Of a stretch of DNA of 37,306 nt, positions 4,729-34,841 are shown in pieces. Positions within the stretch are counted from its first letter, which is position 1, and each line of letters opens with the position of its first letter. Position numbers and translations under genes: made by a program. The notes under the pieces are model-generated. The model ran no database searches. It was not told where the DNA came from and was given only the letters and a program-made list of their open reading frames with translations. The stretch spans positions 1 to 37,306 of the forward strand of contig JAFNAG010000019.1 in NCBI GenBank assembly GCA_017860135.1, in the 5' to 3' direction. The DNA is from Acidobacteriota bacterium. Lineage in GTDB: Bacteria > Acidobacteriota > UBA6911.

Positions 4729-4805
4729 AGGCGTGCCGTGCGGACATAAACCCGCCGCCGTCTAACATCATTGAGAAGAGGACGCAGTGCGCAACAGAGC
4801 CCGGC

Positions 4806-5180
4806 CTACTTCAGCTTGGTTTTCAGAAGCGACAGCAGCAGGGTGCTGTTGATCGGCTTCTGCAGCACGCCGGTCAATCCCAGCGAGCTGAAGTCGGTCG
4901 CCATGTTCAGGTTGTCGCCGACCGAACTGAGAACGTAGACGGGGGCCGCATTGCCGAGAGCGCGCAGCTCCTTGACGAAGCTCGTCCCTGAGTCTATCTC
5001 CTCCATCATCAGGTCGACGAACACAAGGTCGGGTTTGCCCGACCGGTAGACCCGCAGCCCCTCTTCCGCGCTCCTGGCGGTATCGACGATATAGTTGTTC
5101 GCTTCCAGCACGACGCGGAGGGACTCCAGAATATCGGGATCGTCGTCGAGTGCCAGAATCACGTACTTGCCATCTCGCAT
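4806..5180 (-). CDS. stand-alone response regulator receiver protein
   Basis: A 124-residue single receiver domain (CheY-like) without an output domain. It shows the acidic pair in LALDDDPD (D11-D13), the phospho-acceptor aspartate in DLVFVDLMMEE near residue 54, a serine in VLSSVG and the conserved lysine in LQKPIN. The start at 5180 is chosen because GGAG stands 6-7 nt upstream and because the open frame above it belongs to the protease gene in another frame. The protease stop codon ends one base before this ATG, so translation is probably coupled. The partner is likely the kinase encoded next. With no DNA-binding domain it must act by protein contact or as a phosphate carrier. Confidence 0.88.
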   Translation of the reverse strand: MRDGKYVILALDDDPDILESLRVVLEANNYIVDTARSAEEGLRVYRSGKPDLVFVDLMMEEIDSGTSFVKELRALGNAAPVYVLSSVGDNLNMATDFSSLGLTGVLQKPINSTLLLSLLKTKLK

Positions 5181-5181
5181 T

Positions 5182-5703
5182 TCAATCTCCGTCTTTTGAA
5201 GCCCGGCCTCCAGGGCATGCCGTCGTTGCCGCGGAGGCCCGGGCAAAATCGCCATGCCCGAGCACCGGCAGGAGGAATTGCAGGGCCGCCTCGAGGTTGG
5301 CCCGGGCTGCAGGCGAAAGTTGCTCTCCAAAATCGTTGAACTCGTAGCCCCGGATGCCGAGCGCATAGCCTTCCGGTTTCCGGCCGAACAGTTCCCCGGC
5401 CAGTGCAAGCACATGTTCCGGGTCGAGGCTGTGGCTGGAAAACGACTGCATAGCCCCGGGGCAGACAGGCCGGAAGAAAAAAGCGGCATCTCCGGCAACC
5501 GCCGCATCCACAAAGACGACCGTCCGGTAACCGGCCGCGGCGTGGGAGTCCTCGACGGTCAACTGGTAATCCGTCTCCACGGTGACGCCCGGCGGAGCGA
5601 TCTGCTCGATCGCCGCGCCGAACGCCGGGCCCAGGCCGTCATCCAGTCGCGCGGGATTTCCATAGCACAGCAGCAGGATGCCTCCCCCGGGACCTGCAGT
5701 CAT
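5182..5703 (-). CDS. [NiFe]-hydrogenase maturation endopeptidase
   Basis: A 173-residue protein of the HyaD/HycI/HoxW family. These peptidases remove the C-terminal peptide of the hydrogenase large subunit after nickel insertion. The family signature GNPARLDDGLG is near residues 15-25, and an acidic residue and histidines follow as expected for the nickel-sensing site. Length is typical (150-200). The start codon overlaps the hoxH stop by four bases (ATGA), and the stop abuts the receiver gene, so it is an operon member. Its substrate is almost certainly the adjacent HoxH, whose 24-residue tail after the last cluster histidine is still present in the coding sequence. Confidence 0.88.
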   Translation of the reverse strand: MTAGPGGGILLLCYGNPARLDDGLGPAFGAAIEQIAPPGVTVETDYQLTVEDSHAAAGYRTVVFVDAAVAGDAAFFFRPVCPGAMQSFSSHSLDPEHVLALAGELFGRKPEGYALGIRGYEFNDFGEQLSPAARANLEAALQFLLPVLGHGDFARASAATTACPGGRASKDGD

Positions 5704-7142
5704 CGCACTTTCCTGTCGACCACTTCTCCATTGTGGTCGAGGATCACAACCTCGAGAGGCATCCGGCCCATGGCGTGGGTTGCGCAGGACAGGCAGGGAT
5801 CATACGCCCGGATGGCCACTTCCACGTGATTGAGCATTCCTTCGGTGATCTCCAGCCTCCCGGAGAGGTATTGTTCGGCTACCTTCTGAACCGCGCGGTT
5901 CATGGGCTCGTTGTTGTTGGTGGTGGAAACGATCAGGTTGGCCATGGTGATCTGATCGTCGCGGTTCACCCGGTAGTGGTGAAACAGGGTGCCGCGCGGC
6001 GCCTCGACGATCCCGATGCCCTCGTCGCGGCGCTCTCCTTTCACCGTCAGGTCGCTCCCCTGCAGGTCCGGATCGTGCAAAAGCCGCTGGATTGATTCCG
6101 CCGAGTGAACCAGTTCGATCATGCGCGCCCAGTGATACGCCATGGTCAGGTTGTTCGGCTTTCCCTGGGTCAGCGCCTTGAATTCCCGGCGCGCGCTTTC
6201 GGCCTGCGGAGTGTCAAAGGAGTCGCAGTTGTTTACGCGAGCCAGCGGACCGACCCGGTACCATCCGTTTTCGGGTCCGAGCGATCTGATGAAGGGAAAC
6301 TTCATGTAGGACCACGGTTTCACTTCCTCGGCTATGAATTCGATATATTTCCGGTTGTCGACATGATCGAAGATCTTGTTCCCCTGGGAATCCAACGCCC
6401 GGAGCCCGCCGTCGTAAATATCATGGGTTCCGTCGGGCCGGACAATCGAGAGGTGGTTGGAAGCGAATGACGCGAAGGAGGAGAGCTGCTCGATGTGCTG
6501 CAATGTGTAGTCTTTCGCTATCTTCAGGGCGCCGGCCGACCAATCCAGGATCTGGCCGATGTCCTTGAGAAAACCATCCCGCTCTTCCACGGTGAGATTC
6601 TTGTTGACACCTCCCGGGATGGCGCCGGTGCCGTGGATCTTTTTGCCCGCCGTGGCCTTGATGATTTCCTGCCCATACTTGCGCAGCAGCACCCCTTGTT
6701 TGGCCAATTCGGGATATTTCCCTGCCACGCCGATGACATTGCGCACTGAGACCTCGGCGTCGAAGCCGAAGAGCAGGTCGGGCGAGCAGAGATGGAAGAA
6801 ATGGAGAGCATGGGACTGCAGAAACTGCCCGTGGTGCATCAGGCGCCGAACCTTCTCCGCGGTGGGAGTCAGTTTCTCCGCGCCGACGATCTGGTCGACG
6901 GCCTTCGCCGCCGCCAGATGATGGCTCACCGGGCAGATGCCGCATAGTCTCTGGACCAGGACCGGCACCTCCCAGAACGGCCGGCCCTGGATGAAGCGTT
7001 CGAATCCCCGGAATTCCACAATGTGCAGGCGCGCCTGCTTTATCCTGGCTTGCTCGTCCAGCAGGATCGTAACCTTGCCGTGCCCTTCGACCCGGGTGAC
7101 AGGTTCAATGACGATTCGTTTGGTTCCATTAGTTGATTTCAC
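5700..7142 (-). CDS. hoxH: NAD-reducing [NiFe] hydrogenase large subunit HoxH
   Basis: A 480-residue catalytic subunit that splits or makes hydrogen at a NiFe(CN)2CO site. The two metal-binding motifs are complete: L1 RLCGICPVSHH with C67 and C70, and L2 DPCLSCATH at residues 448-456 with C450 and C453. Another 24 residues follow the final histidine and would be cut off by the maturation protease. The N-terminal IEPVTRVEGHG is also classical. The start is GTG at 7142, with GAGGAG about 10 nt upstream. Together with hoxY, hoxU and hoxF this fits the group 3d bidirectional cytoplasmic enzyme. The gene begins 18 bp after hoxY and overlaps the protease by four bases. Confidence 0.95.
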   Translation of the reverse strand: MKSTNGTKRIVIEPVTRVEGHGKVTILLDEQARIKQARLHIVEFRGFERFIQGRPFWEVPVLVQRLCGICPVSHHLAAAKAVDQIVGAEKLTPTAEKVRRLMHHGQFLQSHALHFFHLCSPDLLFGFDAEVSVRNVIGVAGKYPELAKQGVLLRKYGQEIIKATAGKKIHGTGAIPGGVNKNLTVEERDGFLKDIGQILDWSAGALKIAKDYTLQHIEQLSSFASFASNHLSIVRPDGTHDIYDGGLRALDSQGNKIFDHVDNRKYIEFIAEEVKPWSYMKFPFIRSLGPENGWYRVGPLARVNNCDSFDTPQAESARREFKALTQGKPNNLTMAYHWARMIELVHSAESIQRLLHDPDLQGSDLTVKGERRDEGIGIVEAPRGTLFHHYRVNRDDQITMANLIVSTTNNNEPMNRAVQKVAEQYLSGRLEITEGMLNHVEVAIRAYDPCLSCATHAMGRMPLEVVILDHNGEVVDRKVR

Positions 7143-7160
7143 AGCTTGTATCTCCTCGAA

Positions 7161-7706
7161 TCAATCGTATTTGATCAGCTGGTACGGCAGCTCGATCGGC
7201 TTGTTGTGAAGCAGCGCCACCAGAGCCTCCCAAAGCGTGTCCGCAGAGGGAGGGCAGCCCGGAAGGTAGTAGTCAATCTTCACCACCTCGTGGGCAGGAT
7301 AGACCTTGTTCAGCAGCAGCGGGATTTCCGGGTCGTTGGGAATCTGTTTGTCCGGATTGTAGACGGTCGGCCCGTTCAGGTACGCCTCTTCCAGGCATTC
7401 CTGCAGAGGAATGGTGTTGCGCATCGCCGGGATGCCGCCCATGGTGGCGCAATCCCCAACCGAGATCAGGATGTCGCAGTGTTTGCGGAACTTCCGCAGG
7501 GTCTCGACATTTTCCTCGTTGCAGCACCCGCCTTCGATCAGCCCTACCAGGCACCGGTCCTGGAATTCCTTGATGTCGTTGATGGGTGACTTGTGGAACT
7601 CCACCAGCTCCGCCAGTGCGAGGATGCGCTCATCGATGTCAAGAAGCGACATGTGGCAGCCGAAGCACCCCGCCAGTGACGCTGTTGCGACTTTTGGTTT
7701 TCCCAT
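7161..7706 (-). CDS. hoxY: NAD-reducing hydrogenase small subunit HoxY
   Basis: A 181-residue small subunit carrying the [4Fe-4S] cluster proximal to the NiFe site. The ligands are visible as SLAGCFGC (C14 and C17), GDCATMGG (C86) and PGCPPSAD (C151). It is a short form lacking the C-terminal ferredoxin-like part of uptake-hydrogenase small subunits, as usual for group 3 enzymes. There is no Tat leader, so the complex is cytoplasmic. I prefer the ATG at 7706 over 7712 because AGGAG lies 6 nt before it and would be too close to the first ATG. The gap to hoxU is under 20 bp. Confidence 0.93.
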   Translation of the reverse strand: MGKPKVATASLAGCFGCHMSLLDIDERILALAELVEFHKSPINDIKEFQDRCLVGLIEGGCCNEENVETLRKFRKHCDILISVGDCATMGGIPAMRNTIPLQECLEEAYLNGPTVYNPDKQIPNDPEIPLLLNKVYPAHEVVKIDYYLPGCPPSADTLWEALVALLHNKPIELPYQLIKYD

Positions 7707-7724
7707 ATTCATCTCCTGTCCCCT

Positions 7725-8438
7725 TCACCTGGCCGGAGCCGCTTTCTCGATTTCGGTCCCGATCGCCTCATGATCATACTGCCGCTTGCCGACGGGCACG
7801 GCGTAGCCGACCCGCTTGCGGAGGATCGCCCCCACGGGGCAGACCTCGATCGCCTTGTCGGTGACAGCAGCATTGGTTTCACCCAGGCCGGCGCGCGCAT
7901 CGACCGCGATACGCTTGTCCCTGCCGCGTCCGACAAACTGAAAGACATTCTTGCCGTCTACGTCCCTGGAAGCCCGCACACACCGGCCGCAGAGCACGCA
8001 GCGGTTCCGGTCCAGGAAAATGTCCGGATGGGATGCATCTACGTCACGGTAAGGGAACTGATAGGGGTATCTGGGTGCGGTGATCCCGAAACGATATGCC
8101 AGAGCCTGCAGCTCGCAGTTCCCGCTTTTCTCGCAGAACATGCAGAAGTGATTGCCCTCGACAAACAGCATTTCGATGATGCTGGTGCGAAGCTTCTGCA
8201 CTTTGGGACTACCGCTTTCCACGACAATGCCTTCCGCGGCCGGCTGGGTGCAGGCCGCCTGTGGCCTGCCGTTGACCAGCACGGTGCAGACCCGGCAACT
8301 CCCGTGCGGCACGAGATCCTTGTGAGAACACAGCCTGGGAATGTATCGGCCCGCAGCGTCGGCAGCCTTCAGGATCGTCTGGCCCGGTTCTCCCTGTATG
8401 GTGTTTCCGTCCAGTATGAATGTGATTTTTTCGCTCAC
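7725..8438 (-). CDS. hoxU: NAD-reducing hydrogenase diaphorase subunit HoxU
   Basis: A 237-residue electron-transfer subunit related to the N-terminal part of NuoG. The [2Fe-2S] ferredoxin domain has C37, C48, C51 and C63. A NuoG-like segment follows with H97, C99, C102 and C108 (NHFCMFCEKSGNC). A ferredoxin-type [4Fe-4S] pair is seen in CVLCGRCVRA and further cysteines such as EVCPVGAI near the C-terminus. It would carry electrons between HoxF and the hydrogenase module HoxYH. The start is GTG at 8438, with AAGGAG 8 nt upstream. It lies 13 bp from hoxF and 18 bp from hoxY. Confidence 0.93.
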   Translation of the reverse strand: MSEKITFILDGNTIQGEPGQTILKAADAAGRYIPRLCSHKDLVPHGSCRVCTVLVNGRPQAACTQPAAEGIVVESGSPKVQKLRTSIIEMLFVEGNHFCMFCEKSGNCELQALAYRFGITAPRYPYQFPYRDVDASHPDIFLDRNRCVLCGRCVRASRDVDGKNVFQFVGRGRDKRIAVDARAGLGETNAAVTDKAIEVCPVGAILRKRVGYAVPVGKRQYDHEAIGTEIEKAAPAR

Positions 8439-8451
8439 GATGTCTTCTCCT

Positions 8452-10281
8452 TCACTCTGTCAGGTGAACCGACTTGCGGCCGGCAATTTTCGAAGCTTCC
8501 GCCACGGCAGCCGCCAGGTCGAATTCAGGCTGCAGCCCATCGGGCGCGGGTGTCACCCGGCCTTCGTACACGGAGCGGAATTTCTCCAGTGAGGTGAGAA
8601 CCGGATTGGCTGCGGTCTGACCCAGGCCGCACCGGCTTGCGATCTTGATGGTTTCGCCCAATTCCTTGAGGTAGACGAGGTCTAATGGCTCTCCCTTGCC
8701 GTGCCGGATCTTCTGCAATCCCTGCCGCAGGAGCACGTTCCCGGCCCGGCACGGCGTGCAGTACCCGCAGCTTTCATGGACGAAGAACTCCATGAACGCG
8801 TCGACCGCTTCGAGCAGGTCGCGGCCGGGGCCGAATACCATGATCGAACCTCCGGTGGCGAGATCGTCAAAGCAGATCAGCCGGCTGAAATCGGCGGGTC
8901 CCACCATCTGCCCCGCCGCACCGCCGATCTGCACGGCGATGGCGTCTTCCGCCCCGGCAAGCTTGAGGACATCCTGCAGCTTGATCCCGAGCGGAACCTC
9001 GTAGACTCCCGGTCGCCTGAGATCGCCGGAGATGCTCAGCAGCTTCGTCCCCGCGCTCCGTTCCGAGCCCAAGCCTGCGAACCACGCAGCCCCGCGCTCC
9101 AGAATGCGGGCTGCGCAGCAGTAGGTTTCGACGTTGTTGACGGCGGTCGGACACGCCAGGTAACCCTTCTGTGCCGGGAAAGGCGGGCGGGTCTTCGGGT
9201 CCCCGCGCTCCCCTTCGCACGAACTGAGCAACGCCGTTTCCTCACCGCAGATATATGCGCCCGCCCCCATCTGGATGCGGATGTCGAAATCGAACCCGGT
9301 CTTGCCGCAGACGCTCTTGCCCAGCAAGCCACGGCTCCTTCGGGCCGCCAGGACCGATTCCAGGAAGGCACGCAAATAACTGTACTCCCCGCGAAGGTAG
9401 AGAATGCCCTCCGCGGCACCGATCGCATATCCGCCGATCGTCATCCCCTCGAAAACATTGTCGGGGTATTCGGTCAGGATCACCCGGTCCTTGAACGTGC
9501 CGGGCTCCCCTTCGTCCGCGTTGCAGACGATGAAGCGCCTCCCCGAAGCGCCGGCGCGGGTGAATTCCCACTTCATCCCGGCAGGGAAACCGGCGCCGCC
9601 TCGGCCGCGCAGGCGCGCATTTTTCACATTCCGGATGACCTCCGCCGGACTCATGCCCAGCGCGTTGGTCAGCGCCTCACCGGCTTTCATCGGAGCCAAA
9701 ATGGCCGGCCCCCCCAGGCGGATGTTGTTTTCCACCATGGCCTGGACGAGGTCGTGGGCGTTGTTTCCGTCCCCCAGCTTTTTTACCAGACGCTTCGGGT
9801 CCATGTGTTGTCTTAGATCTTCCACGATTTGCTTTGCAGTGTCGGTGGACAGGCGAGTGCACACAACATCGTCAACCAGCGCCGCCGGCGCCTGGTCAGG
9901 CATGCCGATGCAGGAGGTCCATTCCAGGCCGATTTTCCCGTCTGCCGTGTGGCCGCCCATGCGGATGCCCAGTTCCCGCTGGAAAACTTCCGCCACATGG
10001 CCCATCCCCTGCATGCGATCGATGATAGAATTGCACAGCCGAATCACGATCCTGCCGTTCGGCTTGTCCTTGATAAAAGAGTAAAAGGAAACGAGGCTCG
10101 CCACTTCGACACGATGCGTCCTCAATGCACTGGCGATCACATCCATGGCGTCGTCGGAAACACAGCCATAGCGCTCCTGCACCGACAGGGCCACATCCAT
10201 CAAGCGCGTGCGGTCGTTCCCGTACTCCCGGCAGATGTTGCTGATCGTTGTTTTCAGGTTTTCATCCATAGTTCCATTCAC
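8452..10281 (-). CDS. hoxF: NAD-reducing hydrogenase diaphorase subunit HoxF (NuoE-NuoF fusion)
   Basis: A 609-residue FMN- and NAD(H)-binding subunit. Residues about 1-165 are NuoE-like and the rest NuoF-like. The NADH/FMN site motifs are GRGGAGFPAGMKW, CNADEGEPGTFKD and GAGAYICGEETALL. The [4Fe-4S] ligands are ESCGYCTPCRAGN plus SRCGLG. In the NuoE-like part only two of four usual [2Fe-2S] cysteines remain (RLCNSIID and TSCIGMPD). As I recall it, the soluble hydrogenase HoxF of Cupriavidus necator has the same loss. This supports that subtype; there is no separate hoxE gene here. The start is either 10281 or the second ATG at 10269, and neither has a strong ribosome binding site. It is the first gene of the operon. 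Confidence 0.93.
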   Translation of the reverse strand: MNGTMDENLKTTISNICREYGNDRTRLMDVALSVQERYGCVSDDAMDVIASALRTHRVEVASLVSFYSFIKDKPNGRIVIRLCNSIIDRMQGMGHVAEVFQRELGIRMGGHTADGKIGLEWTSCIGMPDQAPAALVDDVVCTRLSTDTAKQIVEDLRQHMDPKRLVKKLGDGNNAHDLVQAMVENNIRLGGPAILAPMKAGEALTNALGMSPAEVIRNVKNARLRGRGGAGFPAGMKWEFTRAGASGRRFIVCNADEGEPGTFKDRVILTEYPDNVFEGMTIGGYAIGAAEGILYLRGEYSYLRAFLESVLAARRSRGLLGKSVCGKTGFDFDIRIQMGAGAYICGEETALLSSCEGERGDPKTRPPFPAQKGYLACPTAVNNVETYCCAARILERGAAWFAGLGSERSAGTKLLSISGDLRRPGVYEVPLGIKLQDVLKLAGAEDAIAVQIGGAAGQMVGPADFSRLICFDDLATGGSIMVFGPGRDLLEAVDAFMEFFVHESCGYCTPCRAGNVLLRQGLQKIRHGKGEPLDLVYLKELGETIKIASRCGLGQTAANPVLTSLEKFRSVYEGRVTPAPDGLQPEFDLAAAVAEASKIAGRKSVHLTE

Positions 10282-22012: not shown

Positions 22013-23131
22013 CTATTTTCCCAGATGTTTGTCGAAGAACGCTGCGGTCAGCTTATAGCCTTCCTGCGACTCGGGGAAGTCGGGATTGGTCATGGAGCCA
22101 TGGTATAGGCCGTCGTAAATCAGCAGGTCGCTTTCCACGCCCACCTTGAGGAGCTTCCGATGGCTGTACGCAGCCCCGCTCATGGCGAAGTCCCGCGTGC
22201 TCGTGCAGAAGATCGTCGGCGGGAACTTGGCGAGCAGCTTCTCATCCACAGTCGGGCTGACGATGAACTGATTCCTGTCTATGCCGGTAAAATAACCCGG
22301 GCCGGCGGGGGCTCCGCCTGCGCCGCCTCCCTGGGCCCTGCCGGCCGGAGCGTTCGTCACGGACAGCGCGCCGAAAAATTGGGAATCGCCGGCAGCCGTG
22401 GAACCCAGGCCGGCGCAGTAAACCCCAAGCACGCCGGGCGCGGGCAAGCCGTCCCGGATGAGGATAGCCGTGGTCTGCGAAACCAGAGAGCCGCCCGCGG
22501 AGCAGCCGACCATCCCCATGTTTTGCGGCTTGTAGGTCTTCAGCATGTATCTCCAGATCTTCAATAGGTCCTCGCTGGCAGCGGGGAAACGGTACTCCGG
22601 GCCCTGGCGATATAGGATCGACACGACCTTTACACCCAGCGTGGCTGCGACCGGAATGCTGATCAGCAACCCGTTGCCGCGGACGCCGGTGCGGAAACCT
22701 CCGCCCGGCCCGTTGAGCATGAGGCGGTTCCGGTTACGTTCGGGCACCCCGCCCTTGGGCGTAATGATCGCCGCGGAGATCCCATCGATCGTCGTTTCTT
22801 CGATATCGACGGGAAAGACCTCCCGCATATGGTTGACGTTGGGTTTGAGGTTTTCGTTGTAAACCCGCCGCAGCTCGGCCATGTCGGAAATGTCCGACGG
22901 CAGGGGCACGGGGGCGCCCGGCCCTTCGGTCGGTCTGGTCCGCATCAGCACTTTCTTGCCCCCTTCGCTCAGAAGCTCGGGCAGCGGCACGGTTGCATTA
23001 TTGACCACTACCGTACCGTCCGGACGGATGGTGATCGAGCGTTCGGGCACGGCCCCTTTCGGCGAGACGGCGGCCATCAAAGCCGCGCCGATCGCCAGAG
23101 CCAGGACAACATGCAGGCAAAGCCGTTTCAT
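22013..23131 (-). CDS. exported alpha/beta hydrolase, hormone-sensitive-lipase (HSL)-like
   Basis: A 372-residue protein with a signal peptide (first ~22 residues). The catalytic triad is S211 in GCSAGG, D314 in TSTRDFA and H344 in GLYHGS, all in the HSL order. The usual oxyanion-hole HGGG motif is replaced by NGPGGGF at 140-146, which may alter substrate choice. A glycine/alanine/proline insertion occupies about 262-279. Family members hydrolyse short-chain or aryl esters. GGGAGG stands just upstream of the ATG at 23131. It is a minus-strand gene in the same region as the other exported hydrolase, possibly under the same regulator, since an operator-like site lies about 250 bp upstream. Confidence 0.82.
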   Translation of the reverse strand: MKRLCLHVVLALAIGAALMAAVSPKGAVPERSITIRPDGTVVVNNATVPLPELLSEGGKKVLMRTRPTEGPGAPVPLPSDISDMAELRRVYNENLKPNVNHMREVFPVDIEETTIDGISAAIITPKGGVPERNRNRLMLNGPGGGFRTGVRGNGLLISIPVAATLGVKVVSILYRQGPEYRFPAASEDLLKIWRYMLKTYKPQNMGMVGCSAGGSLVSQTTAILIRDGLPAPGVLGVYCAGLGSTAAGDSQFFGALSVTNAPAGRAQGGGAGGAPAGPGYFTGIDRNQFIVSPTVDEKLLAKFPPTIFCTSTRDFAMSGAAYSHRKLLKVGVESDLLIYDGLYHGSMTNPDFPESQEGYKLTAAFFDKHLGK

Positions 23132-24925: not shown

Positions 24926-26819
24926 ATGGAAGAGCAGTGCCTGGTGAATGCAAAGTACTTCAACTACCCGACGGCTTCCGCATTCTCGGTGGCGGGAGGC
25001 CACGGCGGCCAGACATTGTTCCTGCTGGATGGCACGGTTAATATGGACCCCATGTCGAACGTGGACTTGCCTCTGCCGTTCCCCGACGCATTGCAGGAGT
25101 TCAAGGTCGAAACCAGCTCGCTGCCGGCCAACTACGGCATGGCACCCGGCGGCGTGGTCAACGTGGTAACGAAGTCGGGAGCCAACGAGTTTCACGGCGG
25201 TGCATTCGAGTTCCTGCGCAACTACGCCTTCAACGCGCGCAACTTCTTCGCCAAGGAGAGGGACTCCCTGAAACGCAGCCAGTTCGGCGGGCATCTTGGC
25301 GGCCCGATCCTCAAGAACAAGTTGTTCTTCTTCGGCGGGTATCAGGGCACATACGAGAAGGTCTCCCCCGCGGCAAACACCAACTATGTAGCGACCGCGG
25401 TCGTGCTGCAAGGCGACTTTACTGCCATCGCATCGCCCGCATGCAACAACGGCAAGCAAATAACTCTGAAGGCGCCGTTCGTCGGAAACAAGGTAGATCC
25501 CTCGTTGCTGGCTCCGGTGTCGCAGAACCTGTTGAAGCTGATACCGACATCCACTGATCCATGCGGCAAGCCGGTTTACGGAATCCCAAGCGACAACCAC
25601 GAGAATCAGTTCGTGGCAAAAGTGGACTGGCAGATCAATGACCGGCACTCCGCCTTCACTCGTTACTTCTTCACGGACTACCAGCACCCCCCTCATTTCA
25701 CGGACAACCTTCTCACTACGTCAACCGATGCGAGTGCCGGCCTGGCAGGCCGCGTGCAGACGGCGGTGATCGGCCACACCTTCACTATGTCTCCCACTAC
25801 GGTCAGCGTTTTCCGCTTCGGCTATACCCGGTCGAGCATGATCCGGTACCTGTCCTCCAACGTACCGACGCCCACCCAGCTGGGCGCCAATGTGTACCAG
25901 CAGGTCAATAACTACCTGAATTTCAATGTGAGCAACTACTTTGGAGTCGCCTGCAACAACTGCAATCCGGGGCCATGGGTCTCCAACAATTTCCATCTTT
26001 CCGAAGACCTGACGATGATCCGGGGGCGCCATCAGATCTCCGCGGGGGTCAACTATGTCTACTCATAACTGAACTCCCAGGGCAGCTTCATGATGAACGG
26101 CAACTTCACCTTCAACGGCCAGACAACCGGAAATTCCCTGGCTGATTTTATGATCGGCAAGCCGTGCACGTTCTCGCAGGACAACGGCCAGATCGGAAAC
26201 GAGCGCATGCACATCCCGTCTCTCTACGTGCATGATAATTTCCGGATCAACTCCAACCTCACGGCGAATTTCGGCCTGCGGTGGGACCCGTTTCTTCTGC
26301 CGCACCATGCTCAGAACAAGGCCAGTATCTTCGATCGCGCCTGGTTCGACACCGGAATTCGACACGCGATAGATCCAGGTGTTGCTGCACAACTGGCAGG
26401 CATCGACGATCTTCACGGCGATGAGCGGAAACTTTACTACGGTCTCGCTCGGTGTGGACAACTCGTTGACGGGGGGATCCGACCGGCCCAACCTGGTCAG
26501 CAACCCTGAGCTGGATCATCCGACTGTCGAGCGCTGGTTCGACACCACTGCTTTCGCCCGACCGGCGACCGGGAGCTTTGGCAACGCCGGGCGGGGCATC
26601 ATACTCTGTCCCGGAGCGTGGAACCTGGACCTTGCGCTGTCCCGGACATTCCCGATTACCGAGTCACACAAGATTGACTTCCGCGCCGAGATCTTCAACA
26701 TCTTTAATCATGCCCGGTTCGGCAATCCGATCACATCTTTCACCAGCGGAATCTTCGGACAGATCAATACCGCCCGGGATCCGCGCATCATGCAGTTCGC
26801 TTTGAAGTATTCGTTCTGA
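24926..26819 (+). pseudogene. TonB-dependent Oar-like receptor, decayed
   Basis: The reading from about 24947 (NAKYFNYPTASAFSVAGGH) matches the plug domain of the intact receptor at 28680-31940, with PLPFPDALQEFKVETSSLPANYG as a landmark. Four lesions are visible. (a) The first ~175 residues, including signal peptide and carboxypeptidase-like domain, are missing. (b) An in-frame TAA at 26066-26068 interrupts YS-stop-LNSQGSF, consistent with a CAA to TAA change. (c) About 300 residues of the barrel are deleted near 26360-26385. (d) The reading frame shifts at that deletion. The end is intact (NIFNHARFGNPITSF to FALKYSF). The protein cannot be functional, yet its promoter module survives. It is likely a diverged duplicate of the receptor downstream. 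Confidence 0.88.
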
Positions 26820-27712: not shown

Positions 27713-28679
27713 TTGCGATCTCTTTCCGGTGATGCAGCCGGCTGCTTCTTGGTGGCAGCGCCGTCAAATTTTGCGTTGAATGAAATGCAATCATAAACAG
27801 GTTATGTTATGACAGTATTGACTGAAGATCAAACGACTTCCGAGCTATTCCGCTATCCTGCCAGCATGAAGAACCCAATCACGAGTACCTGTTGATCCCT
27901 CGATGCGATTGGAACCGCCAAGACCTGCAGGACCGCCATGAACTTCCATGGAAGTCTTCGCATCGCGATGATGCCGGCTTCCCGACCCTGCAGCAGAGGA
28001 CTCCGGCGCGCGAGGCGCTGCACCCCTGCGGAGGAAGCCCGGGCGCGTGCCGTCGAAGGGTGGCTTGCCGTTTGATATATCAGAAACTTATTGACATGGC
28101 GCCCCTGTTAGTCCTAATCTGACCCCAACACTGGCACCATTAGCGGGAGAGGACAGCAACAATCGTGGCGGAGGCCGGGAAACGAAGAGTGCTCTCGATT
28201 TCCCGACGGGCGGTGCGGCAACACACAGACGCTATGCTCAGCCCATGAACGGAATTCCGTCGCATCAGCGGTGGGCGGCCGGGAACCTCATGACATCACA
28301 CGGCGCGGGCCCGCGAAGGGCGCTGCATGCATGCTGCTGCAGTGATGGATTTGCGGATTCCTCTCAGGTGCGGCTTTCCCCTGGAAGGCCGGATCCTCAG
28401 GTCTTGGCTTGCGTCAGGGTGTGAGATGACAATTTGGTCCAGATCAGCTTTCGGCCTCACGCGCATGATCTCACGCGGTACCGCACCCTTTTGCTGTCAG
28501 GAAATATTCCTTCGGGCGATGTGCGAACCGGACCCTGCGGTTCGATGTGATGTAAGCAATGGGAGCGCCCGGCGCCGTCATTCTGCAGGTTGCCGTGACA
28601 GGCCGCAACGACCAGGATATGCATATCGCCTCGGGTCAGGGCTTTGACATTCCATCCGGATGAGATAAAGGGGGGGACG
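27713..28679. other. 967-bp gap with promoter module and long leader
   Basis: No gene is supported. Operator-promoter module 3 lies at 28072-28120, so the transcript for the receptor gene would have a leader of about 550 nt. Palindromes in the gap include ACTTCCATGGAAGT (27942-27955) and CGCGGGCCCGCG (28304-28315, inside the leader). I recognise no riboswitch. The leader could be the remains of a deleted small gene or a regulatory RNA region. Confidence 0.45.
28072..28120 (+). promoter_or_regulatory. operator-promoter module 3 (intact TonB receptor)
   Basis: Operator TTGATATATCAG (28072-28083), 7-nt linker, perfect -35 TTGACA (28091-28096), 18 nt, -10 TAATCT (28115-28120). The operator centre is about 49 bp before the predicted start site. 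Geometry equals modules 1 and 2. Confidence 0.65.
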
Positions 28680-31600
28680 ATGAAACGAAGCTTTCTTGCA
28701 ATGCTTGTGCTTCTTGCGCCGTGCTTCCGTCTGGAGGCCCAGGTCGCACCGGTTTCGCAGGTGTCGGGCGTTGTGCGTGATGCCAGCGGCCTGTCGGTGC
28801 CGGACGCGGAAGTCACGATAACAAATACAGCTACTTCGGCATCGCGGACCGTGCGGAGCGCGATGAACGGATCCTACGCGATTACCAACCTTGCGGCAGG
28901 CCCATATGCCCTGCAGGTGAAGGCGCCGGGCTTTGCGACGTACACGCAGACAGGCATAGTGCTGCAGGTAAACAGCAGCCCGATACTCAACGTCACACTC
29001 AAAGTAGGCGCCATTACCGAAACTGTGGAAGTCCGGGCGGACGCGGCGATGGTGGAGTCGCGAAGTCTGGGCATCGGCCAGGTCATCGACGAAAGGCGCG
29101 TCGTCGACCTTCCGCTCAACGGACGGGATGTGTCGCAGTTGATCGCGCTCTCCGGCGCCGCGGTGGCTTACACAGGCACAACGATGAAGAGCAACCTGAA
29201 CCACGCGGAATCTTCCTCTTACTCGGTTGCCGGCGGGCAGATGAACGCGACCAACTACGTGCTGGATGGCGGCACGCACATTGACCCGCGAACGAACATC
29301 GGCTTGCCTCTGCCGTTTCCCGACGCGATGCAGGAATTCCGGGTGGAAACAAGTTCCCTGCCGGCGAGTTATGGGAGCATGCCGGGTGGCGCAGTCAATG
29401 TCATCACCAAATCAGGCACGAACAGCTTCCACGGCAACGCCTTCTGGTTTGTGCGCAACGGCGCGATGAACGCCCGGAATTTCTTCGCGCCGACGCGGGA
29501 TTCCCTCAAACGGAACCAGTTCGGCGGCACGCTCGGCGGCCCCATCCTGGAGAACAGACTCTTCTTCTTCGGCGGCCTTCAGGGCACCACCCTGCGCACC
29601 GCCCCGGTCACGGAGATTTCGTACGTTCCGACGGCAGCCGTGTTGCAGGGCGACTTTCGCCAGATCCTGGCGCCCCCCTGCCAGCCCAAGCAGGTTAATC
29701 TGTCATCGGCGATCGCCAAGGACAACGTCCTTCTCCCGGGCGTTGTGGACCCGGTGGCGATGAACTTTTTCGCGAGGCTGCCGGTGGCAACCGATCCCTG
29801 CGGTAAGATCCAGTATGGCATCGTCACCAAGACCAATGCGTATCAAGCGGTGGGGAAAATCGACTGGCAGCGAACCACGAGCGACCATATCTTCGGCCGG
29901 TATTACATCAACGATTACGATCAGGCTGCATACATGGACCCGGAAAACCTCCTGACAACCCGAAATGGCCTCCCTAACCGGGTACAGTCCATCACGCTGG
30001 GAGATACGTATGTGATCAACCCAAAGACGGTCAGTTCGTTCCGCCTCAGCTACTCCCGTTCCGCCGTGCAGCGGCTCCCCCATCCCGACAATCCCACCAT
30101 GGATGAACTGGGGTCCAAGATAACCGCCATGTTCCCCGACTATGTCGGCCAGGTGTCTGCCTCGGGTTATTTCTCGTTCCCGCTCGCGACGCTTCCCGGA
30201 TACGTTTACACGAATGTCTATGGCGTCTCCGAGACCATCGAACTCGCACTGGCGAAACATCAGCTCTCCTTCGGCTTCACCTGGAATCAGACGCGGATGA
30301 ACTCACTCGGCCCATTTCAGATGAACCCCCGCATGACTTTCACGGGGCAAATCGGCGGCAATGCGCTTGCGGATTTCATGACGGGAAACATGACCACGCT
30401 GCTGCAGGGCGGCGGGCAGATCGGCCGCGAGAAGCAGAACAGCCCGGCGCTGTATGTCCAGGACAACTGGAAAATGTCGCAGCGGTTAACGTTAAGCCTG
30501 GGATTGCGCTGGGATCCATGGCTTCCGCAGGTCAGCAAATACGAGTATGCAATGCGGTGGAGCCGCGCCGGGTTCGACGCAGTCGAAAGAAGCCAGGTTT
30601 TTGTGAATGCACCTCCGGGGGTGACCTTCCCGGGCGACCCGGACTTTGAGGGAAGAGTTACGGGGCTGAATCCAAAGTACAATCTCTTCGCACCGCGCAT
30701 CGGATTGGCTTTTGACCCCCGGGGCCTGGGCAAGGAGACGATCCGGGCGGGTTACGGCATCTTCTACGGCGGCCAGAATTACCTCTGGCACACGATGCAT
30801 GTACCGCTGAACCCACCGTGGGGATACACGATATCGCTCTCAGGGGTCAAGCTCTCGGATCCGTGGGCCACGTATCCGGGCGGCGACCCGTTTCCACCGC
30901 CGACGGAATTCCCTTCCGATTTCATTTTCCCGACCAGCGCCAAGTACGTATTTGAAGCGGATGAGGCGCGACCCACCTACATGCAGCAGTGGAACCTGTC
31001 CTTTGAGAAACAAATCGGAATCGACTGGCTGGTTGGCGCAACCTACATGGGAAACAAGACGACACACCAGTGGCTGAGCTATGCTCAGAACCCCGCCGTC
31101 TATTTCCCGGACGCCTCATGCACCCTGGGGGGTGTGACATACACCCCTTGCTCCAGCACCCGCTCCACCGACGCGCGCAGAATCCTGTCCCTTTCCGATC
31201 AGCCGAACGGGAAGTATATCGGGAATCTCTATATAACCGATGACGGCGCCAACGCAAGCTACAACGGTCTGAAGCTCTCCCTGAACCGGCGCTTCAGTCA
31301 CAACTACTCGGCGCTCGCCAATTACACGTTGTCCCACTGCCTCAATCACGGCGAAGTTGGTCAGGATATCACCAGCATGTACCAGAATCCCTACAACCGC
31401 AATGCGGAATGGGGGAACTGCGACCTGGATCGGCGTCATATTTTCAACCTCTCCATGGTTGCGCAAACCCCGAAATTTGCTACCAAATGGCTTCAGGCGG
31501 TCGCGGGCAACTGGGGATTGTCGGGGATCTTCAATTACGTCAGCGGGAGCTCGTTGACGGTCATGACGGGCACCGACGCTTCCCTCACCGCAGTCGGGAT

Positions 31601-31940
31601 GGATCGACCAAATGTGGCCGGCAATCCGAATCTGGATGACCCGACCATCAACCAGTGGTTTGACATTTACCAATTCGCGCGCAATGCTGCCGGAACCTAC
31701 GGCAGTGCCGGACGAGGCATCGTGCGCGGCCCCTCGGCGTGGAATTTTGACGCGGCCCTGTGGCGCATCATTCCGTTGACGGAGGCCGTGAATTTCGATA
31801 TTCGCTTTGAGGCGTTCAATGTATTTAACCACGCGCGCTTCGGCAATCCAAACACCACGTTCACATCGGGCAATTTCGGAAAGATCACTACTGCCGCAGA
31901 CCCGCGTATTCTGCAGTTAGCTTTTAAAATTGCCTTCTAA
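28680..31940 (+). CDS. TonB-dependent receptor, Oar-like, with carboxypeptidase-regulatory-like domain
   Basis: A 1086-residue outer-membrane protein. The signal peptide is about residues 1-20. A carboxypeptidase-regulatory-like (beta-sandwich) domain follows (VSGVVRDASGLSVPDAEVTITN to LQVKAPGF, about 27-90), then a plug region (RRVVDLPLNGRDVSQLI; NYVLDGG; GGAVNVITKSGTNSFHG). A large barrel ends in FNVFNHARFGN and a terminal LQLAFKIAF with C-terminal phenylalanine. Such receptors are numerous in Acidobacteriota and are thought to import sugars, peptides or aromatic compounds. The start at 28680 has a G-rich ribosome binding site just upstream; the longer frame adds no signal peptide. It is controlled by module 3 and has a long leader. 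The decayed receptor at 24926 is its nearest relative in the window. Confidence 0.92.
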   Translation: MKRSFLAMLVLLAPCFRLEAQVAPVSQVSGVVRDASGLSVPDAEVTITNTATSASRTVRSAMNGSYAITNLAAGPYALQVKAPGFATYTQTGIVLQVNSSPILNVTLKVGAITETVEVRADAAMVESRSLGIGQVIDERRVVDLPLNGRDVSQLIALSGAAVAYTGTTMKSNLNHAESSSYSVAGGQMNATNYVLDGGTHIDPRTNIGLPLPFPDAMQEFRVETSSLPASYGSMPGGAVNVITKSGTNSFHGNAFWFVRNGAMNARNFFAPTRDSLKRNQFGGTLGGPILENRLFFFGGLQGTTLRTAPVTEISYVPTAAVLQGDFRQILAPPCQPKQVNLSSAIAKDNVLLPGVVDPVAMNFFARLPVATDPCGKIQYGIVTKTNAYQAVGKIDWQRTTSDHIFGRYYINDYDQAAYMDPENLLTTRNGLPNRVQSITLGDTYVINPKTVSSFRLSYSRSAVQRLPHPDNPTMDELGSKITAMFPDYVGQVSASGYFSFPLATLPGYVYTNVYGVSETIELALAKHQLSFGFTWNQTRMNSLGPFQMNPRMTFTGQIGGNALADFMTGNMTTLLQGGGQIGREKQNSPALYVQDNWKMSQRLTLSLGLRWDPWLPQVSKYEYAMRWSRAGFDAVERSQVFVNAPPGVTFPGDPDFEGRVTGLNPKYNLFAPRIGLAFDPRGLGKETIRAGYGIFYGGQNYLWHTMHVPLNPPWGYTISLSGVKLSDPWATYPGGDPFPPPTEFPSDFIFPTSAKYVFEADEARPTYMQQWNLSFEKQIGIDWLVGATYMGNKTTHQWLSYAQNPAVYFPDASCTLGGVTYTPCSSTRSTDARRILSLSDQPNGKYIGNLYITDDGANASYNGLKLSLNRRFSHNYSALANYTLSHCLNHGEVGQDITSMYQNPYNRNAEWGNCDLDRRHIFNLSMVAQTPKFATKWLQAVAGNWGLSGIFNYVSGSSLTVMTGTDASLTAVGMDRPNVAGNPNLDDPTINQWFDIYQFARNAAGTYGSAGRGIVRGPSAWNFDAALWRIIPLTEAVNFDIRFEAFNVFNHARFGNPNTTFTSGNFGKITTAADPRILQLAFKIAF

Positions 31941-32381: not shown

Positions 32382-33446
32382 ATGTCAGCCCGATCGTTTA
32401 TGCGCAGGATTGCGCATTGGAGCGTACTCTTGCTGTCGTCTTTGTTGTTCTGTTCGGGGATGTACGGCAGGGCCATGGCACAACAGACCGGCATCAAGTT
32501 CAAGAAACCGGTATTTGGCGGCGCCTGCAAAGCCTGTCCTTGGGGCGCCATGGCAGAGATCGTGAAGTCGGCTATGCAGCCTTATGGCTACGATGTTCAG
32601 GTCTGCTATACCTGCTCGGGCGTGGATGCCCCCAGGATCGTCGCAGAAGCGAAAAAAGGGCCTGCTCCGAAGCCCGAATCACTGACGCCGCTTCCTCCTC
32701 CTGATGGTCCTGTCGATTTCGGCGCAACTGCTGCGCACTTCCTTTGGGAGGCGTATCAGGGTATCGGTAAATATGCACCTGACGGACCGATGAAGCACCT
32801 GCGCCTCCTGGCTAACATTCAGGATCCTCTGTATCTGGTAGTCGCGGTGAAGGCCGACTCCGGCATTGCCGATCTGCGCCAAATCAGGGAGAAAAAATTG
32901 CCCGTGCGTATCATGGGTAATCTCGAGGCTGCCTATTCGGATGCCGTACTTGCCTATTTCGGGATTACCGCAAAGGAACTCGAATCCTGGGGCGGCCGGA
33001 TGGTGAGGTCCAACGCCGAAGGGCGCAGAAACTTTGATGTTGTCATCCACGAAGCAAGCAGGGGCAATCCTCCCGAATTCAGTCTTTTCAACGAAATCAG
33101 CGAGACTACGCGCCTCAACTACCTGGACTTGCCCGAAGATCTGCTCGTACAAATGGCCGGGGATTTCGAACTCGAGCGCCGAAGCCTGCCAATTGGCTTC
33201 CTGCGAGGGATCGACCGGACAATTCCGACGGTCGCCCGGTCCGGCACGGTCGTCTATGGTCGGGCGGACGTTCCCGATGAGTTTGCCTATGCCGTGGCGA
33301 AGGCGCTCGACGAACAGCAGGACCTGTTTGCGTGGAGCAACAACACGTTTTCGTATAACCGCTTCAGGGTCGGCAAGGCATTCGGTGTCCCGCTGCATCC
33401 CGGTGCCGCCCGCTATTATCGGGAGAAGGGCTACATAACCAAATAA
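32382..33446 (+). CDS. TAXI-family TRAP-type solute-binding protein, orphan
   Basis: A 354-residue exported protein with a signal peptide of about 34 residues (cleavage near AMA-QQ). The fold is that of TAXI-type receptors: a start on VFGG, central PMKHLRLLANIQDPLYLVVAVKADSGIADL, and a closing ALDEQQDLFAWSN to HPGAARYYREKGY. Unusual is a cysteine set in the mature N-terminus, GGACKACPWG (C-x2-C) and VCYTCSG (C-x2-C), which could form disulfides or bind metal. No TRAP permease gene (DctM/DctQ or the fused form) is present in the window, so it may serve a distant transporter or act as a sensor. AAGGAAA lies 7 nt before the ATG. Confidence 0.7.
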   Translation: MSARSFMRRIAHWSVLLLSSLLFCSGMYGRAMAQQTGIKFKKPVFGGACKACPWGAMAEIVKSAMQPYGYDVQVCYTCSGVDAPRIVAEAKKGPAPKPESLTPLPPPDGPVDFGATAAHFLWEAYQGIGKYAPDGPMKHLRLLANIQDPLYLVVAVKADSGIADLRQIREKKLPVRIMGNLEAAYSDAVLAYFGITAKELESWGGRMVRSNAEGRRNFDVVIHEASRGNPPEFSLFNEISETTRLNYLDLPEDLLVQMAGDFELERRSLPIGFLRGIDRTIPTVARSGTVVYGRADVPDEFAYAVAKALDEQQDLFAWSNNTFSYNRFRVGKAFGVPLHPGAARYYREKGYITK

Positions 33447-33566: not shown

Positions 33567-34841
33567 CTAGATCAGTTCAGTCGTACCCGGGATTGCCACA
33601 GGGTCCGTCTGGTTGGGTCCGAACTCATACTTGGCCGGCGAAAGGTCGAGCTTCGACGAGTTCATCGCCCATTCCCAGGAAATGGCGCGGCCCGTGTAGG
33701 CGCTCATCCGGCCGATCACCGCACACAAGGTGCTTTCGGCGATCTGGCGGCCTTCATTGAGAACCTTCCCCTTCCGGATCGAGGCAATCAGGTCGACGTG
33801 CTCCTGAACGTAGGGTTTGCCTTCCTTGTCATTGTATTTCCAGGCTTTCTTCCCTTGGATCTCGCCGGAGCTCAACGCCACTCCCTTTGTGCCGACGATG
33901 CGTTCTTCGACGCGTTCCGCGCATCCCTTGGTCTGCCGGCACATGCTGGCCACACGGACTCCGTTGGGATATTCGAATTCGACGAAAAAGTGGTCGAAGA
34001 TATTGCCGAATTCGGGGGCGATGCGGACCTGGCGTCCGCCCATGCCCATGATGTTTTTGGGCATGGCCCCGATCGCCCAGTTCACCACGTCGATGTTGTG
34101 CACGTGTTGTTCGACAATGTGGTCGCCGGAGAGCCAGGCGAAATAGAGCCAGTTGCGGCACTGCCACTCCATCTCGCTCATGCCTTCGGCGCGCCTCCTG
34201 ACCCAGAGGTCGCCCTGGTTCCAGTAACACTGCGCGGAGACGATCTCTCCGATCTGCCCGTCATGGATGCGTTTCATGAGCTCGAGGTAGCGCTTCTGAT
34301 GCCGTCGCTGCGTTCCCGCGACGACCGCCAGGCCCTTCTGCTTTGCCAGTTCGGAGGAGGCGATCACCGAGCGGACGCCCACGGGATCCACCGCGACAGG
34401 CTTCTCCATGAATATGTGTTTGCCGGCATCAACCGCCGCCTTCAGGTGAATTGGGCGGAAGCCGGGAGGGGCGGCGGTGACGATGAGATTGACGTCCGGG
34501 CAGGCGCATACCTGGAGGTAGTTGTCGAATCCGGTGAAACGGCGCTCGACCGGCACCTTGATCCGTTCCGGGAAAGCTTCACTGAGCTTCTTGAAGGAAC
34601 CCTCGATCCGGTCGGGCACCAGGTCCCCCATCGCGACGATTTCCACTCCCGGGTCCGCGTTGAGACAATCCAGTGCCGCGCCGGTGCCGCGCCCTCCGCA
34701 GCCGATTACTCCCACTCTGATCATGTCCGATCCGGCAGCGAAGAGCCCGAGGTTTCCGGGCATGGCCGCTGCCAGCGAGGCCGCAGCTGCCGTCTTGACG
34801 AAGTCACGCCGGGTTACCGATGCATTATCCGGGTTATCCAT
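33567..34841 (-). CDS. Gfo/Idh/MocA-family oxidoreductase with Tat signal
   Basis: A 424-residue NAD(P)-dependent oxidoreductase. The Tat leader is VTRRDFVKTAAAASLAAAM (residues 9-27). The Rossmann dinucleotide motif GVIGCGGRGTG spans about 44-54. The active-site EKP is at 146-148 (FMEKPVAVD), and the histidine-rich catalytic segment is GDHIVEQHVHNIDVVNW. Such exported members act on sugars or sugar acids and often retain a tightly bound cofactor. It is the last gene of a minus-strand run, 23 bp after the isomerase-like gene. It probably handles the same compound as that enzyme. Confidence 0.9.
   Translation of the reverse strand: MDNPDNASVTRRDFVKTAAAASLAAAMPGNLGLFAAGSDMIRVGVIGCGGRGTGAALDCLNADPGVEIVAMGDLVPDRIEGSFKKLSEAFPERIKVPVERRFTGFDNYLQVCACPDVNLIVTAAPPGFRPIHLKAAVDAGKHIFMEKPVAVDPVGVRSVIASSELAKQKGLAVVAGTQRRHQKRYLELMKRIHDGQIGEIVSAQCYWNQGDLWVRRRAEGMSEMEWQCRNWLYFAWLSGDHIVEQHVHNIDVVNWAIGAMPKNIMGMGGRQVRIAPEFGNIFDHFFVEFEYPNGVRVASMCRQTKGCAERVEERIVGTKGVALSSGEIQGKKAWKYNDKEGKPYVQEHVDLIASIRKGKVLNEGRQIAESTLCAVIGRMSAYTGRAISWEWAMNSSKLDLSPAKYEFGPNQTDPVAIPGTTELI

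Follow-up and report, generated by a model that had tools for sequence, protein, structure and literature searches.

TAXI proteins are the least understood receptors of TRAP transporters. A figure legend in a review states that TAXI-TRAP systems were without exception accompanied by fused DctQM proteins (PMC5812351). In 2025 a TAXI protein that works independently of a TRAP permease was put forward as a first (PMC12344293). The nearest precedent for such a protein is TAXI-GltS (BP0403), which resembles the family studied here in having a TAXI protein without a TRAP permease and in forming fusions to a functional partner; in that system GltS, a symporter, is the partner and glutamate the ligand (PMC12344293). 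The fused partner here is a carboxylesterase. Orphan binding proteins without a linked permease also occur among TctC/Bug proteins, for which the use of distant permeases has been proposed (PMC5812351).

TctC/Bug is a family other than that of the protein described below, which we call C4-TAXI. We know of no four-cysteine pattern in TctC/Bug or in MxaJ; the latter has a binding-protein fold and is bound to the methanol dehydrogenase MxaF, an instance of the fold as partner of a periplasmic enzyme, although MxaJ (9ism) compares with C4-TAXI as a weak fold match only. The TctC/Bug orphans include the terephthalate-binding TphC/TBP, which serve ester-derived acids. Thi5/Nmt1, the HMP-P synthase, has a binding-protein-type fold. 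Thi5/Nmt1 is also like C4-TAXI in possessing four cysteines, which are functional in that enzyme (PMC10512395); it differs in being a thiamine-biosynthesis enzyme with a CCCFC motif and in giving a weak fold match only.

The window, i.e. the whole stretch of Acidobacteriota DNA that was analysed (37,306 nucleotides; contig JAFNAG010000019.1), carries one C4-TAXI gene (Table 1), whose base usage by codon position is of the coding type by a simple score of our own. Read by eye, the N-terminus of its product has the features of a signal peptide, namely a basic start, a hydrophobic core and A-M-A followed by QQ, with no lipobox in this presumed signal peptide, and the protein is apparently exported. 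Its cysteines are C24, inside the presumed signal peptide, and C49, C52, C75 and C78, which lie in the motifs GGAC49KAC52PWG and VC75YTC78SG. The protein matches Pfam NMT1_3 with 81.7 bits (gathering cut-off 27; E 9e-23; residues 109-350) and is the sole match to this model in its genome at E 0.001. Against NCBIfam TRAP_TAXI (TIGR02122) it scores 78.1 bits, below the cut-off of 84.35. Solved TAXI chains match as well, the best being 9ibo and 8s4j (E 1.5e-13). By sequence, the C-terminal two thirds of the protein is TAXI, while residues 1-108, with all four conserved cysteines, fall outside both family models.

Table 1. Features of the C4-TAXI gene, its product and neighbouring genes in the window
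Feature	Position	Strand	Remarks
C4-TAXI gene	32382..33446	+	354 aa; ORF open and intact; aligned with 12 relatives
Presumed Sec signal peptide, residues 1-33	32382..32480	+	sequence read by eye; model helix 3-27
First pair, C49-x2-C52, then invariant P53 and G55	32526..32537	+	start of predicted helix 53-68; invariant in 13/13
Second pair, C75-x2-C78, 3' of GYDV stretch	32604..32615	+	invariant in 13/13
Proline-rich insert, second pair to (V/I)DFG motif	32646..32708	+	alignment
NMT1_3 (PF16868) region, residues 109-350, ending in VPLHPGAARYYRE	32706..33431	+	Pfam profile match
Alpha/beta hydrolase (Abhydrolase_3)	22013..23131	-	73% identity across 197 aa with a truncated counterpart near the L034 copy
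Outer-membrane receptor (CarboxypepD_reg + OMP_b-brl_4)	28644..31940	+	ends 441 bp upstream of the C4-TAXI gene
Gfo/Idh/MocA oxidoreductase, convergent, downstream	33567..34841	-	Pfam scan

Structure prediction had been suggested in the initial annotation as a check. Two AlphaFold2 models, built from 4 and 6 alignment rows, have mean pLDDT values of 54.6 and 61.1, and pLDDT at the cysteines is below 50 in both. A fold search with the 61.1-pLDDT model returned 4ddd, 1us4, 8u79, 9ibp, 9ibo and 8s4j at Z 11.7-13.7, the next row standing at 7.1. This model recovers a TAXI fold, with low confidence where the cysteines lie. With the described TAXI proteins (VcGluP, 8S4J/9IBO; TtGluBP, 1US4/1US5; PF16868, TIGR02122), C4-TAXI shares the C-terminal two thirds, including a (V/A)PLHPGAxRYYxE-like end, the overall fold and presumed export; it differs from them in a proline-rich insert, in its score below the NCBIfam cut-off, in the absence of any linked DctQM found, and in having CxxCP(W/F)G and C(Y/H)xC where VcGluP has GSVTGVYYP and STGGS.

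The relatives collected comprise 13 copies in 11 genomes of Acidobacteria and Gemmatimonadota, with L005 and L040, whose contigs are equal in length, treated as one locus and counted once; a partial ordinary TAXI gene adjoining its permease (L012), a remnant (L006) and duplicate locus ids were left out. C49, C52, C75 and C78 are invariant in all 13 copies at identities to the window protein of 39-56%, and given this divergence the four-cysteine pattern is not due to chance. They belong to 37 invariant columns of the 13-copy alignment, among which P43, A48, P53 and G55 stand beside the cysteines. When cysteines were counted in each copy from 15 residues ahead of the first pair, 10 of the 13 copies had exactly four, and L004, L038 and L039 had five or six. 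All 13 copies have the same N-terminal layout, in which C-x2-C-P-(W/F)-G is followed by C-(Y/H)-x-C and then by the proline-rich insert, a stretch that exceeds its equivalent in seven ordinary TAXI proteins by as many as 25 alignment columns. These seven, aligned by MAFFT with four C4-TAXI proteins, have no cysteine at any of the four positions; three of them have one cysteine three columns ahead of C75. In a maximum-likelihood tree computed solely from residues C-terminal to the cysteine region, a branch with 100/100 support sets the 13 copies apart. Given the invariant cysteines and this branch, we regard the copies as a subfamily with an N-terminal part of its own, C4-TAXI. The initial annotation had proposed conservation of the four cysteines in homologues as a check and had named its absence in close homologues as a refuting result; this result did not occur.

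Where the cysteines lie relative to the ligand is less firmly placed. The ligand of VcGluP is held, directly or via water, by S40, V44, Y45, Y46, S75, Q93 and others (PMC11574862). In the MAFFT alignment the first pair falls on the S40-Y46 loop of VcGluP and the second just ahead of S75. Among the ordinary TAXI proteins, a G(V/I)YY loop occupies the first site in six of the seven, L047 being the exception, and the second site has loops such as TGGS, TKAS and TSGS; these ligand-contact loops, G(V/I)YY and (S/T)xGS-type, are absent from all 13 C4-TAXI copies, which have CxxCP(W/F)G and C(Y/H)xC there instead. The alignment of the model to 8s4j (VcGluP) starts at model residue 51, paired with chain residue 46, and so adjoins the glutamate contacts V44/Y45/Y46 given in the VcGluP study; this predicted start agrees with the loop mapping, short of proof. 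Counting against the mapping, a profile-profile comparison (hhalign) of residues 34-130 with ordinary TAXI gave scores that shuffled columns readily equalled, in 97 of 200 shuffles in local mode and 118 of 200 in global mode, which leaves the mapping to MAFFT and a weak model. The initial annotation placed the pairs within the ligand-binding part; the stretch itself lies outside both family models, and from position and a low-confidence model we infer that the pairs may sit at the ligand-binding loops.

The four cysteines may form a metal site, disulfides or a redox dithiol. Heme of the c type, one of the options raised initially, is unlikely because CxxCH occurs in none of the 13 copies, the second cysteine of each pair being followed by P, or by S/A/N/W. 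The CCCFC motif of Thi5/Nmt1 is likewise present in 0 of 13. Weak matches to Thioredoxin_3 were given by four of the 13 N-terminal segments at E of 10 or less (best E 0.029); the scores of the window protein (13.6 bits) and of L035 (14.0 bits) are below the cut-off of 24.8, so that membership is rejected, and the matches accord with a CxxC that opens a helix and nothing further. When the N-terminal part was compared with PDB profiles, three matches emerged at E 0.38-2.4, which were taken as chance, and kinship with zinc ribbons, rubredoxin or thioredoxin was not upheld.

C4-TAXI is rare and patchy within the genomes searched, as judged from low genome counts throughout. A scan for exact query peptides across 84,980 species genomes gave three loci, and a search of those three genomes found second copies in two of them. 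In whole-genome searches, 3 of 396 sampled genomes of the window's own phylum match at E 1e-20, one of the three (G314) with an ordinary TAXI; at E 1e-40 the matches are 2 of 395 genomes in the phylum of the L004 genome, 7 of 193 in another class of the window's phylum, and 1 of 38 in its own class, this one being the window genome itself. Among viral contigs, one scan gave no C4 relatives and two further scans were empty; two ordinary TAXI genes were found. L035 and L036 are near-copies, and the L040 (= L005) copy is broken by a frameshift. A genome of the same genus as the window carries a C4-TAXI remnant with a stop (L006, 1507-1806; 47% over residues 114-199), so this lineage may be losing the gene. 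In the tree, L032, the fusion copy from an acidobacterium, falls together with L004, L038 and L039 of the other phylum (87/94), a hint of gene transfer across phyla.

The window gene had been described initially as an orphan receptor with no TRAP permease near, and a dedicated permease consistently linked in relatives had been named as an observation that would speak against this. A search for DctM (PF06808; E 0.001) gave 20 matches in 9 of the 11 genomes, none of which shares a contig with a C4-TAXI copy; some copy-bearing contigs are short (G127:C82 and G867:C789, 6.7-6.8 kb), so that a distant linkage is still possible there. The window genome has three DctM matches, on C424, C33 and C325, none of them on the window contig, and at the same threshold no DctM was matched in G867 (96% complete) or G682. 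As an internal control, an ordinary TAXI gene was found directly beside its permease in G397:C358 and in G398/G858:C310. The orphan description thus stands, and no consistently linked DctM emerged in the relatives. MFS genes occur near the copies of L037, at a distance of 1.5 kb, and of L035, at 3.4 kb, and an MFS-like gene 5.8 kb from that of L039 (by eye), which leaves room for an unrelated permease. At L033 (5044-9908) the copy adjoins ZnuA-like and ZnuB-like genes and a gene for a molybdopterin-binding oxidoreductase domain protein; a zinc link was discarded, the ZnuA gene being near this one copy only. No transporter type recurs at one position across the copies. Reading the neighbours by eye and Pfam-scanning 32 of them brought no GltS to notice.

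The strongest functional link is to carboxylesterases, the clearest partner found for C4-TAXI and one that the initial annotation had not anticipated. At L032 (genome G799, 5664-8387, also given as 5661-8390) a single ORF encodes a COesterase domain (residues 89-550, 365 bits) followed by NMT1_3 (665-905, 105.5 bits), joined at ...YFAWRRSPEGLADTGIREKKPVFGGACRVC, with no second signal-peptide-like stretch between the domains when read by eye. A COesterase gene is also the next neighbour of the copy in L031 and L004. Counting matches of at least 200 bits, COesterase occurs within 1 kb of 3 of the 13 copies against 0.047 expected (Poisson P 1.7e-5) and within 10 kb of 4 of 13 against 0.233 expected (P 1.0e-4); as COesterase was picked after the neighbourhoods had been viewed, these P values are flattering, and the fusion is the stronger argument. 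Further hydrolases occur near individual copies: PF00756 esterases in L004 and L032, BD-FAE, GH43 and a GH5-like gene beside the L039 copy, and a beta-lactamase-family serine hydrolase directly upstream of that of L038. The window copy has no COesterase within 1 kb; the nearest alpha/beta hydrolase noticed is 9 kb off and of another family. The Abhydrolase_3 protein of the window and its counterpart in L034 (3-599, minus strand) share their 73% identity between two classes, the C4-TAXI proteins themselves only 47%.

The gene neighbourhoods otherwise vary. In the window the C4-TAXI gene is on its own, between the receptor gene upstream and the convergent Gfo/Idh/MocA gene. Outer-membrane receptors of PF25183 adjoin the window, L034 and L036 copies, but such receptors are numerous, with at least 39-66 matches in each of 8 of the 11 genomes (lower bounds, 39 candidates having been scored of 55 to 260) and 6-10 in the other three, so that this adjacency was not counted as evidence. 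A Gfo/Idh/MocA gene is also found near the L036 copy. Regulators near the copies differ, being GntR, TetR, LysR or MarR-like (by eye, with the Pfam scan of 32 neighbour genes). The search for a kinase or permease partner proposed at the outset gave no recurring kinase and no linked DctM; what it did find were kinase-like genes near two copies, in different arrangements, and none noticed near the others. Directly downstream of the L032 fusion lies a gene for a protein kinase whose N-terminal part looks membrane-like, and downstream of the L031 copy (3770-5849) lie an AbiEii-type nucleotidyltransferase and a truncated kinase-like ORF 1.9 kb off. Elsewhere in the window, an outer-membrane receptor-like gene at 24926-26819 is split over frames (24926-26068, 26090-26509, 26379-26819) and is possibly frameshifted, decayed or a sequence error. 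What looks like a multi-subunit hydrogenase, with large and small subunits and 2Fe-2S and NuoE/F-like proteins, is encoded at 2851-10281 (minus strand), adjoining a response regulator and a histidine kinase of the membrane (all read by eye).

The shared cysteine pairs, the absence of any TRAP permease found and the esterase fusion suggest that the fold is used here beyond ordinary uptake. Our main reading, to which we give a probability of roughly 0.4, is that C4-TAXI, instead of being a TRAP receptor, serves ester breakdown outside the cytoplasm as a ligand-binding or accessory module. The protein would be periplasmic or secreted, its TAXI fold having departed from TRAP transport, and would act as a stand-alone binding or accessory module for extracytoplasmic ester and polysaccharide breakdown, perhaps by holding or presenting a released product or substrate to an esterase or to a shared uptake route. 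The four cysteines would form one site at the former ligand loops, either a metal-thiolate centre or two disulfides that set the pocket. A narrower version is doubtful in our estimation, namely that the ligand loops were rebuilt as a four-cysteine metal-thiolate or redox-dithiol site and that in Acidobacteria and Gemmatimonadota the domain assists secreted carboxylesterases as a module that is either non-catalytic or co-catalytic. We would be similarly hesitant to take the COesterase-C4-TAXI fusion for the most compact form of such an arrangement.

The main rival, somewhat unlikely but to be taken seriously, is an ordinary orphan solute-binding protein that delivers a small organic acid to a permease, of the TRAP type or another, whose gene lies apart from it, with the cysteines as structural disulfides. 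Such a carrier could draw on the DctM proteins, at least one of which is present in 9 of the 11 genomes, or on the MFS transporters less than 4 kb from the L035 and L037 copies; the related TctC/Bug family supplies the described orphans already mentioned, and exactly four counted cysteines in 10 of 13 copies would suit two periplasmic disulfides. It fits less well with the two genomes that give no DctM match, with the loss of the VcGluP glutamate contacts in an N-terminal alignment of limited trust, and with the esterase fusion, which is odd for a carrier that needs to dock on a permease.

Improbable by comparison is a redox or metal sensor, the role proposed in the initial annotation, in which a membrane partner would read the ligand, metal or oxidation state of the cysteine site. 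Redox dithiols are similar to the CxxC with which a predicted helix begins, weak matches to Thioredoxin_3 occur in the segments listed above (the window's own below the cut-off), kinase or kinase-like genes lie near the L032 and L031 copies, and the L033 copy has its Znu-like neighbours; yet no single type of kinase, chemoreceptor or regulator recurs beside the 13 copies, and a sensor role finds no clear support. Still less probable is an enzyme on a binding-protein fold whose cysteines bind a metal for catalysis within the cleft, after the manner of the iron motif of Thi5/Nmt1. Thi5 (4h67, 4h6d) is among the structure-search matches, each of its four cysteines is needed, and the CCCFC motif binds iron (PMC10512395); but the best Foldseek E for Thi5 is 2.7e-3 with an rmsd of 13, CCCFC is not two C-x2-C pairs, and no catalytic acid or base was identified in C4-TAXI. 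An artefact, whether chance cysteines, a pseudogene or assembly contamination, is the least credible of all. The window genome has an estimated contamination of 7.58%, it is the sole one of 38 genomes of its class with a copy at E 1e-40, and both a frameshifted relative (L005/L040) and the same-genus remnant exist, but the invariant cysteines in 13 copies from 11 genomes refute an artefact for the family, and the window ORF is intact with coding-type base usage.

Taken together, C4-TAXI is a rare side branch of the TAXI family, most likely a non-TRAP binding or accessory module. Neither a four-cysteine TAXI nor a TAXI-esterase fusion is among the literature matches listed, which cover open-licence papers. 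If the reading as an extracytoplasmic module is true, it would be a second and different departure from TRAP, with the TAXI fold also used outside transport, and the fusion protein makes the idea of an esterase module directly testable. It would also provide a handle on how soil Acidobacteria break down esters and plant polysaccharides.
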